Both the position numbers and the translations under genes were made by a program. This document shows positions 59,526 to 61,828 of a DNA stretch of 64,000 nt, piece by piece. The notes under the pieces are model-generated. The model ran no database searches and had not been told where the DNA came from. It worked only from the letters and a program-made list of their open reading frames with translations. The first letter of the stretch is position 1. Every line of letters begins with the position of its first letter. Origin of the DNA: Nocardia asteroides. GTDB lineage: Bacteria; Actinomycetota; Actinomycetes; Mycobacteriales; Mycobacteriaceae. The stretch is taken from positions 1,798,001 through 1,862,000 of the forward strand of contig NZ_LR134352.1 of assembly GCF_900637185.1 (NCBI RefSeq), in the 5' to 3' direction.

Positions 59526-60838
59526 GTGTTCGCCGCCGCGAATCCGGCGCGCAGATCCGCCAGGATGTCGTCGATTCCCTCGATGCCGACGGCGAGCCGG
59601 ACCAGCCCCGGGGTGACGCCGGAGGCCAGCTGCTCCTCGGGCGTCAACTGCGAGTGCGTGGTGGACGCCGGGTGAATCACGAGAGAACGCACATCACCGA
59701 TGTTAGCGACATGGCTGTGGAGGCTGAGAGCGTCCACGAACTTCTTGCCCGCATCGACACCGCCCGCCAGTTCGAACGAGACGATCGCGCCCGCGCCCTT
59801 GGGCGCCAGCTGCTTGATCCGCGCGTGCCACGGCGAGGTCTCCAGCCCGGCGTAGTGCACCGCGTCGACGCCCGGCTGCTCGGCCACGAACTTCGCCACC
59901 GCCTCGGCGTTGGCCACGTGCCGCTCGACCCGCAGGCTCAGCGTCTCGATGCCCTGCGCGATGAGGAAGGCGTTGAACGGCGAGACCGCCGCGCCCAGGT
60001 CGCGCAGCAGCTGCACGCGGGCCTTGAGCGCGAACGCGGGCGCGCCGAGGTCGGCGAAGACCGCGCCGTGGTAGCTCGGGTCGGGCTCGGTGAAACCGGG
60101 GAAGCGGGCGTTGCCGTCGGCGTCGCGCACGGTCCAGTCGAAGGTGCCACCGTCGACGATCACACCCGCGACCGCCGCGCCGTGGCCGCCGAGGTACTTC
60201 GTCGCCGAGTGCACGACGATGTCGGCGCCGTGGGCCAGCGGCTGGATCAGGTACGGGGTCGCGACGGTGTTGTCGACGATCAGCGGGATGCCCGCGTTGT
60301 GCGCCACCTCGGCGATGCCGGGGATGTCGAACACCGCGCTGCTCGGGTTGGCGATGGTCTCGCCGTAGAAGGCCTTGGTGTTGGGCCGGATCGCGGCCTG
60401 CCACTGCGCCAGGTCGTCGGGATCCTCGACGAAGGACACCTCGATGCCGAGCTTGGGCAGCGAGTAGTGGAACAGGTTGTACGTGCCGCCGTAGAGGTGC
60501 GGGCTGGACACGATGTGGTCACCGGCGCTCGCCAGGTTCAGGATCGCGTAGGTCTCGGCGGCCTGGCCGGAGGCCAGCAGCAGCGCCGCGACGCCACCCT
60601 CGAGCGCGGCGACGCGCTGCTCGACCGCGTCCTGGGTGGGGTTCATGATCCGGGTGTAGATGTTGCCCGGCTCTGCCAGACCGAACAGCGCGGCGGCGTG
60701 ATCGGTGTCGCGGAAGGTGTAGGAGGTGGTCTGGTAGATCGGCAGTGCCCGCGCGTTGGTGGTCGCGTCGGGAGCCTGGCCCGCGTGGATCTGCTTGGTC
60801 TCGAACGACCAGTTCTCGGGCAGGGCAGAGTCGGACAT
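59522..60838 (-). CDS. metY: O-acetylhomoserine sulfhydrylase
   Basis: A PLP enzyme of 438 residues that makes homocysteine from O-acetylhomoserine and sulfide (direct sulfhydrylation). It shows [42 protein letters not shown] and the PLP lysine in [13 protein letters not shown] near residue 210. ATG 60838 has TGGAG 9 bases upstream and gives the family N-terminus; the in-frame extension to GTG 60904 is not credible. Its leader holds a polycysteine short ORF and a SAM-IV-type riboswitch, so it should respond to SAM and possibly to cysteine supply. Confidence 0.95.
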
Positions 60839-60873
60839 GTTTGTGCTCCAGGGTTGTTCGCCGGGGAATCGCG

Positions 60874-60906
60874 TCAGATGGGTTGGATCGACGGACAACA
60901 ACACAT
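60874..60906 (-). CDS. polycysteine leader peptide MCCCPSIQPI
   Basis: A ten-codon ORF: ATG TGT TGT TGT, then PSIQPI and TGA. It has a strong ribosome site, AGGAGG, 5 bases before the ATG (60912-60917), better than that of metY. Three consecutive Cys codons would make ribosomes stall when charged Cys-tRNA is scarce. Polycysteine short ORFs acting as cysteine-responsive attenuators are known in mycobacteria. It lies between the riboswitch and metY (35 bases after its stop), so it can pass on both signals. The role here is inference from position and codons. Confidence 0.7.
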   Translation of the reverse strand: MCCCPSIQPI

Positions 60907-60914
60907 GGGGGCCT

Positions 60915-61030
60915 CCTGCGGTGCGCGCTTGCCCTCGACCTTCGAGAGCCCGGTCATCACCCGGAGCACCCCACCGCAGCTGGAGGGTTGCCGACCAGCG
61001 AGCCGGGGCTTGGCGCTGGTACTCATGACC
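60915..61030 (-). ncRNA. SAM-IV-type riboswitch controlling metY-metX
   Basis: An RNA leader with the hallmark core of SAM-I/IV aptamers in the actinobacterial form: P1 arms GGTCAT (61025-61030) and ATGACC (60952-60957), GAGTACCAGCGCCAAGCCCC, CGCTGGTCGGCAACCC, GGTGGGGTGCTCCGGGTGATGACC, then a downstream CTCGA/TCGAG hairpin and GGCAAGCGCGC. CTGCGGTG in the core (60972-60979) is exactly complementary to CACCGCAG (60916-60923), which overlaps the AGGAGG of the leader peptide. SAM binding could therefore hide that ribosome site. Expected effect: less metYX when SAM is high. Confidence 0.88.
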
Positions 61031-61093
61031 TTGCCGTCATGTTAACCGGCCGTCGTGTCCGCGCGGAAACTTCCCCCGGTTTCGTCGCCTGGA

Positions 61094-61828
61094 TCACTGT
61101 CCCGTCGGTGTGCCGGGCGTCGGCGTGTCGGTGTCCGGCGGCGCACCGCAGATGCGGCGGAGCTCGTGATACGCCCGCAGGATGGCGGTCCTGGTGACCT
61201 GCGCGGCGGCCTGCGGTGTCGAGCTCAGCAGCGCGTCCTCGACGCCGACCAGCGACAGATGGCACAGCATCTGCCAGGTGCCCGCCACCAGCCGCACCGA
61301 GAAGTCCTCCGCGCCGGTCCCCATCCGCTCGGCCAGCTCGGCGCACACCGCGACGTTCTTCTTCTCCGCGTACTCGAGCGCGCGGGCGTTCACGGCCTGG
61401 CTGGTTCGCATGATCCGCTGCATCTGCAGGAACTGGCGCAGGAAGCGCACGCCGTCCGCGTCGGCCTCGGCGTCGACCACGTGCAGATAGGCGCCGCACA
61501 GCGCCCGCAGTTCGTTGCCGGTGCGCGGCTGCCGGGCCAGCGCGCTCGCCACGGAGATACCGAAGTCGTCGATGGGCGCGAGGACGATGTCCTCCTTCAT
61601 CGGGAAGTACCGGTTGACCGTGCGGGGGGAGACGTCGGCGCCGGCGGCGATCTGCTCGACCGTCGTCGCGTCGAATCCCTGGGTGTCGCACAGGCTCAGC
61701 CCGATGTCGACGATCGCGGCCCTGGTCTGCTGCTTCTTGCGTTCCCGCAGGCCAGGGGTCTGGCGGGCGGGAGGCGCGGCCGGGTCGGTCGTCCGGTCCG
61801 CGCTGATCGGAGGGGTCGAGTCCAGCAT
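61094..61828 (-). CDS. TetR-family repressor of the adjacent exporter
   Basis: A 244-residue TetR regulator. The HTH at about 32-80 contains RAAIVDIGLSLCDTQGFDATTVEQIAAGADVS (split in the middle of the helix pair) and PRTVNRYFPMKEDIV. The C-terminal domain is helical (FLRQFLQMQRIMRTSQAVNARALEY in two helices). It diverges from an MFS exporter across 125 bases. Repression relieved by an exporter substrate is the usual arrangement and is inferred here. Confidence 0.9.
   Translation of the reverse strand: MLDSTPPISADRTTDPAAPPARQTPGLRERKKQQTRAAIVDIGLSLCDTQGFDATTVEQIAAGADVSPRTVNRYFPMKEDIVLAPIDDFGISVASALARQPRTGNELRALCGAYLHVVDAEADADGVRFLRQFLQMQRIMRTSQAVNARALEYAEKKNVAVCAELAERMGTGAEDFSVRLVAGTWQMLCHLSLVGVEDALLSSTPQAAAQVTRTAILRAYHELRRICGAPPDTDTPTPGTPTGQ

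Follow-up and report, generated by a model that had tools for sequence, protein, structure and literature searches.

A SAM-IV riboswitch and a polycysteine leader ORF lie in series before metY-metX in Nocardia and related actinobacteria

Our results show that the metY-metX genes of Nocardia asteroides are preceded by a complete SAM-IV riboswitch aptamer and, directly behind it, by a short upstream ORF (uORF) whose start codon is followed by a run of cysteine codons. Within the Nocardia-Rhodococcus clade nearly all sampled members have the Cys-uORF arrangement, and some mycobacteria and uncultured actinobacteria share it. We consider it likely that SAM gates initiation on the polycysteine leader ORF, which would in turn sense the charging of Cys-tRNA and signal to metY, and one mRNA probably reads two sulfur signals by way of this leader. 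The parts are known; their serial arrangement, from SAM-IV to Cys leader ORF, appears to be undescribed within the literature searched.

Methods

The metY relatives were drawn from 148 genus genomes, 141 family genomes and the best 80 of 569 named loci. The class-wide search for SAM-IV counted 81 of 148 genomes under stricter filters and 119 matches, with 4 weak ones left out. Further stretches comprised 80 from the genus and 40 from the family among the matches listed, and 80 from the class table. Of 373 loci, 287 had an aptamer by an nhmmer profile, which did not pick up 7 weak class matches listed by the covariance model. metY was found downstream of the aptamer in 206 loci; 3 without an ATG or GTG start were dropped, 185 of the remainder were distinct, and removal of 5 with gaps above 320 or below 0 nt left a final set of 180 distinct SAM-IV/metY leaders. 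Nocardia is over-represented in this set (63 of 180), and the coded genera (g10 etc.) and the named genera may overlap. The strict uORF rule called for a Shine-Dalgarno (SD) match of at least 4 nt at a spacing of 3-11, an ORF of at most 45 codons and at least two Cys within the first six codons. The control for chance consisted of 100 rounds of dinucleotide shuffling of the 180 leaders.

Results

The window, by which we mean the whole 64-kb stretch of DNA analysed, carries the following features at the metY locus:

61030 to 60920, minus strand: SAM-IV riboswitch aptamer (RF00634, 105.1 bits, full model)
60932 to 60924, minus strand: aptamer 3' tail GCAAGCGCG, containing the 3' strand of pseudoknot PK-2 (letters checked; strand position after the available part of PMC6890682)
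60917 to 60912, minus strand: AGGAGG, ribosome site of the leader ORF (from the sequence)
60906 to 60874, minus strand: leader ORF MCCCPSIQPI with its stop (from the sequence; Cys run conserved among relatives)
60903 to 60895, minus strand: three Cys codons TGT TGT TGT, codons 2-4 (Cys at these codons in most uORFs)
60863 to 60853, minus strand: CGGCGAACAAC, a candidate 3' arm of an attenuator hairpin, with complementarity to codons 5-6 and to Cys codons 3-4 (from the Nocardia comparison only; absent from the default RNAalifold result)
60849 to 60846, minus strand: GGAG, ribosome site of metY (from the sequence)
60838 to 59522, minus strand: metY, O-acetylhomoserine/O-acetylserine sulfhydrylase (NF005872, 836 bits; PF01053)
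59525 to 58377, minus strand: metX, homoserine O-acetyltransferase (NF047917, 589 bits, cut-off 475)

An earlier, sequence-only reading of this DNA had proposed a SAM-I/IV-type aptamer in the metYX leader, and the element is indeed a full SAM-IV aptamer: its score stands against a gathering score of 38, positions 1-116 of the model are complete, and it is the sole Rfam match at or above the gathering threshold in the window. The ten-codon ORF with a strong AGGAGG, which that reading had placed directly after the aptamer and before metY-metX, is borne out by the sequence and begins 13 nt behind the aptamer. It reads ATG-TGT-TGT-TGT-CCG-TCG-ATC-CAA-CCC-ATC-TGA, with ATG at 60906-60904 and TGA at 60876-60874, and 6 nt separate its AGGAGG from the aptamer tail with the 3' pseudoknot strand. 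A spacer of 35 nt, which includes GGAG, separates the uORF stop from the metY ATG at 60838. MetY matches PRK07812 (O-acetylhomoserine sulfhydrylase) with 836 bits against a cut-off of 703, and metX overlaps the end of metY by 4 nt. The leader shares with the polycysteine sORFs a series of adjacent Cys codons within a short ORF ahead of a sulfur-metabolism operon, and the pattern GGAG-N4-11-ATG-TGY-TGY-TGY has a single occurrence in the 6.98 Mb genome, which is this ORF. Its start codon is preceded by the aptamer and AGGAGG, which would point away from a leaderless ORF. A TetR-family regulator gene in the same direction (61094-61828, minus strand) ends 63 nt upstream of the aptamer, and read-through from it into the metY leader is possible. 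Consensus scans of 60800-61120 gave no intrinsic terminator and no sigma-70-type promoter match.

A uORF under the strict rule lies between aptamer and metY in 111 of the 180 leaders and in 24 of 46 groups, whereas the shuffled leaders reach 0.38 on average and never more than 3 of 180. Since shuffling gives at most 3 of 180, chance is excluded as the source of the Cys uORF, in agreement with the earlier judgement that the Cys codons of the window were unlikely by chance. The earlier reading as a whole would have fallen had close relatives lost the Cys codons while keeping the riboswitch, which they have not. The run is present in all 63 Nocardia and all 8 Rhodococcus leaders, as well as in g10 (8/8), g22 (4/4) and g16 (3/3). 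Further out it is patchy (Mycobacterium 3/21, Mycolicibacterium 2/8, Gordonia 0/4, g29 0/5). Of the 69 leaders without a strict Cys uORF, seven carry a short SD-led ORF that contains one Cys (for example MSRCR and MCRSPR). A looser rule found an ORF in 9 of the 29 strict negatives whose gap is 100 nt or more (1.94 on average and at most 6 in shuffles) and a Cys ORF in none of the 40 with a shorter gap. Among metY loci lacking the aptamer, 1 of 78 has a Cys uORF, and that ORF lies 307 nt upstream in a stretch that may stop short of an aptamer.

In a FastTree tree of 118 full-length MetY proteins, 65 of them with the ORF, the trait changes at least 7 times, against a shuffled mean of 39. The clade with Nocardia and Rhodococcus (support 91) has the ORF in 56 of 57 members, and the exception, L140, has a loose match. 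In the same tree the ORF is found in 4 of 7 members of another clade, made up mainly of uncultured actinobacteria, and the mycobacterial clade has it in 5 of 35. In mycobacterial leaders without the uORF (L085, L087, L091, L093, L108 and others) the metY start lies 46-48 nt past the aptamer; the Cys ORF is thus present in some mycobacteria and absent from related ones.

The run behaves as coding sequence. Across the 111 uORFs the frame of the ORF holds 0.564 Cys per codon and the two alternative frames 0.013 and 0.002, and Cys occupies codons 2, 3 and 4 in 106, 99 and 93 uORFs, respectively. From codon 5 on the residues are variable, uORF length within Nocardia ranges from 5 to 20 codons, and peptides such as MCCCPSIQPI, MCCCRSPFAFR, MCCPG, MCCCCCSSSR, MMCCCCRR, MCRCP, MCMCQ, MSCCRR, MHCCCTSIYT and MCCLPCCC have little in common beyond the Cys run. 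The metY frame of the window is open upstream to a GTG at 60904, and metY could in principle start there, with the Cys run being its N-terminal coding region read out of frame. This is hardly credible: metY has a start and SD of its own, and such an N-terminal extension was rejected because the frame is open into metY in just 9 of the 111 uORF leaders.

The choice of Cys codon raises another alternative. TGT makes up 90% of the 322 Cys codons in the uORFs (291, against 31 TGC), the opposite of the bias in gene-like frames of the window (18 TGT and 81 TGC, n = 99); slower wobble decoding, an unstructured start region or pairing with the metY side are possible reasons for this preference. The TGTTGTTGT run might accordingly be kept as RNA, either as an arm against the ribosome site or as an unstructured start region, rather than as Cys codons, with the aptamer alone regulating, and the pairing found in Nocardia between the run and the stretch before metY would suit such a role. 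We regard this as very unlikely, since the cysteines persist where the nucleotides differ (31 codons are TGC; the C-x-C forms MCRCP, MCMCQ and MCRCC; SC and HC forms), an in-frame SD and start codon precede the run in 63 of 63 Nocardia leaders (elsewhere the rule itself required them), and outside Nocardia there is no pairing signal.

The layout of the leaders bears on which start codon the aptamer could control. Where the gap from aptamer to metY is below 80 nt the uORF occurs in 0 of 34 leaders, which partly reflects scant room for an ORF, and at 80 nt or more it occurs in 111 of 146; the ribosome site beside the aptamer is therefore either that of metY or that of the Cys ORF. In the uORF-bearing leaders the mean SD match is 6.3 nt for the uORF (at least 4 being forced by the rule) and 4.1 nt for metY, and in the 40 uORF-less leaders with a gap below 100 nt it is 4.45 nt for metY, hardly stronger. 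For the uORF-bearing leaders this upholds the earlier statement that the site next to the aptamer belongs to the peptide and not to metY. The 3' tail of SAM-IV holds the 3' strand of PK-2, according to the available part of a cryo-EM study (PMC6890682), and in Nocardia the uORF ATG lies 21-27 nt past the start of this tail. From this geometry of aptamer and SD, we infer that SAM binding blocks the leader SD. PK-2 would pair the P3 loop with the tail as CCGCG with CGCGG in most groups outside Nocardia, while in Nocardia CUGCG or CAGCG faces a CGCG/CGCA tail, a shorter and weaker pairing. Many other genera have a hairpin of the GGGTCCG...CGGACCC type between aptamer tail and uORF. A pairing over 7 bp between ACCGCAG and the P3 loop would reach into the SD in the window; it was also considered, and most relatives have not kept it.

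The genome carries five SAM-IV aptamers, and behind two of the others (L002 and L004) the SD of the main gene itself lies at about the equivalent distance from the aptamer; the gene behind L002 is presumably rhodanese-like. Another aptamer of the same genome, L005 (G000:C1:211834-211949, minus strand), is followed by an ORF beginning MDYACRCIRLLTRAISACPDRGG..., without an NCBIfam match, and by a gene that we take to encode the substrate-binding protein of an ABC transporter. In L275, L314 and L322, and weakly in L290 and L320, SAM-IV matches are followed by Cys leader peptides of the RRHxDL type, which in the first three reach or exceed the cut-off of NCBIfam NF042934 ('putative leader peptide'); these form a second and apparently independent combination of SAM-IV and leader peptide. 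Ten SAM-IV leaders of g49, a genus of the class (L149, L151, L153, L155, L158, L159, L167, L170, L267 and L269) have a common SD-led ORF (VSKRMR, VNQRMR or VSQRMR) 44-65 nt past the aptamer, in front of a gene that reads, we assume, as a cysteine desulfurase.

How the uORF might act on metY was approached through position and pairing. In Nocardia the distance from uORF AUG to metY AUG is 61-87 nt (sd 6.7) and that from uORF stop to metY 2-53 nt (sd 9.3); because the former is steadier, the position of the Cys run seems to matter over that of termination, although insertions and deletions may just be rarer than shifts of the stop. This bears on a reading with the same two sensors and the opposite cysteine sign, in which translation of metY would depend on coupling to the leader ORF or on reinitiation behind it; SAM would block the leader ORF and hence metY, and cysteine shortage would stall ribosomes at the Cys codons, lower metY and spare sulfide for cysteine synthesis. 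The uORF ends within 10 nt of the metY start or overlaps it in 6 of 111 leaders (-4 in L065, L340 and L342; 2, 3 and 9 nt in L199, L049 and L089), and termination-reinitiation from a uORF behind a riboswitch was shown in reporters for M. tuberculosis ppe2, according to the available part of PMC11260477. The stop lies at least 30 nt from metY in 104 of 111 leaders, in 33 of those at least 60 nt, and in Nocardia it shifts over 2-53 nt while the Cys run holds its distance, which may in part reflect the rarity of insertions and deletions. On this balance we think coupling doubtful, with a clearly smaller share of our confidence than a signal from the Cys codons themselves.

A hairpin between Cys codons and metY start would be one means of such a signal, and the sequence comparison is suggestive in Nocardia and gives no support elsewhere. 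Between the Cys arm and the sequence ahead of metY, the duplex has -12.54 kcal/mol in native Nocardia leaders against -10.82 in dinucleotide shuffles, with 0 of 100 as low; in the MCCCR subgroup of Nocardia 6 of 100 shuffles are as low, and outside Nocardia the duplex is no better than in shuffles (29 of 100 as low). In an alignment of 31 Nocardia leaders with ten-residue ORFs, the CGGCGAACAAC-type stretch pairs with codons 5-6 and Cys codons 3-4, and codon 2 adds four pairs with the end of the metY SD. This structure pairs in 92.4% of cells, against 34-57% in slid controls; none of 500 shuffles reaches its covariation score of 0.126 and 2 of 500 reach its 7 two-sided cells, in a test that favours the structure because it was derived from a fold of the same sequences. 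Two of the five measures do not stand out, its 3 two-sided pairs being matched by 106 of 500 shuffles and its 9 further pair types by 337 of 500, and default RNAalifold predicts no pair in this alignment. Under RIBOSUM scoring, the real alignments of five groups fold better than nearly all of their column-shuffled versions (0 to 2 of 60 as good), but part of these folds is a trivial pairing between the two start codons. Upstream regions of metY fit the Cys arm better in ORF-bearing than in ORF-less leaders (p 1e-5), an effect due to Nocardia (p 0.48 without it, 0.88 at group level). When a stalled ribosome was masked, the metY ribosome site was no freer than in shuffled leaders (0.083 against 0.056-0.092), and the stretch from uORF to metY showed no extra structure in the 111 leaders (mean z -0.05 against shuffles). 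Positions 60800-60935 of the window are less stably folded than 198 of 200 shuffles.

Discussion

The comparison supports the aptamer, the coding Cys run, their association and an alternative layout with metY at the gated position, and from there we infer the gating of the uORF by SAM, the response to cysteine with its sign, and the hairpin. In the reading that we prefer, the leader would be an RNA controller with two inputs, its riboswitch acting on a sensor ORF rather than on the enzyme gene. With SAM bound, the folded aptamer, its tail 6 nt before AGGAGG, would exclude ribosomes from the leader ORF. When SAM is low, ribosomes would load at the strong leader site and immediately reach Cys codons 2-4, where their dwell would be a readout of Cys-tRNA charging, and occupancy of these codons would decide the translation of metY, which in Nocardia starts 61-87 nt downstream behind a shorter ribosome site. 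A ribosome halted at the Cys codons could prevent their pairing with the metY start region, so that MetY-MetX would rise when SAM and cysteine are both short. By analogy with the mycobacterial polycysteine ORFs, activation upon cysteine shortage is more likely than the opposite sign. Ribosomes stalled on those ORFs reportedly free the ribosome site of the next gene, as is said of the work of Canestrari et al. from 2020. The more specific version, a nested, riboswitch-gated attenuator in which SAM decides whether the cysteine sensor is read and a ribosome on the Cys codons beside the pseudoknot could hold the riboswitch open, has in our view about even chances.

If this reading is true, one leader RNA joins SAM and cysteine, the two ends of sulfur metabolism, at an enzyme through which sulfide is committed to homocysteine. 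Since some relatives in nature have the uORF behind this aptamer and others lack it, what either sensor contributes can be tested directly. There is a caution for annotation as well: when a SAM-IV riboswitch is credited to the closest annotated gene, the ORF most likely under its control can be overlooked.

The earlier suggestion that a Cys ORF combined with a SAM riboswitch had not been described agrees with our literature search, which found no description of SAM-IV with a Cys leader ORF among the matches listed and no paper joining SAM-IV with polycysteine; the matches listed for SAM-IV riboswitch with uORF were, by title, all on SARS-CoV-2 RNA. A SAM-IV riboswitch has been placed before metY of M. 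avium (MAV_4315), and the available part of that paper mentions no uORF (PMC3774663). With known SAM-IV riboswitches (RF00634) our leader shares the full-length aptamer match and differs in that the first gateable start is that of a leader ORF, not of an enzyme gene. The polycysteine leaderless ORFs of mycobacteria are cited in the accessible portions of PMC9094748 and, as a case of translation attenuation, of PMC13236596. Those sORFs, with which the leader peptides Ms5788A and Ms4527A of NCBIfam belong, are likewise short, carry successive Cys codons and precede sulfur genes, whereas the Nocardia ORF is SD-led, lies behind a riboswitch and has its Cys codons directly after the start codon. 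In Streptomyces lividans, the leader peptide before metNIQ, labelled methionine-dependent in Table 4 of PMC8079986, ends in ...RCMCRRMCAF with three Cys; going by that excerpt, cysteine could be what it senses.

In 2005 Seliverstov et al. (PMC1262725) predicted Cys leader ORFs for actinobacterial cys operons; the available text of that study reports no conserved RNA structure at methionine operons. As far as that text goes, the cys-operon leaders resemble ours in being predicted Cys leader ORFs without an obvious terminator, but they precede cys and cbs operons and have the Cys run near the stop codon. The B12 riboswitches and the Mbox of M. tuberculosis likewise act on a uORF that affects the next gene, and differ in that no amino-acid-sensing run of codons is described there, within the available parts of PMC11260477 and PMC12810186. 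Going by the portion of PMC6460261 at hand, a further counterpart in design is the mgtA leader of Salmonella with MgtL, which also unites an ion-sensing RNA and a leader ORF rich in codons for one amino acid; that system, however, reads Mg2+ and proline and works by transcription attenuation, and its ORF is apparently part of the riboswitch pairing, whereas in Nocardia the ORF stands behind the riboswitch.
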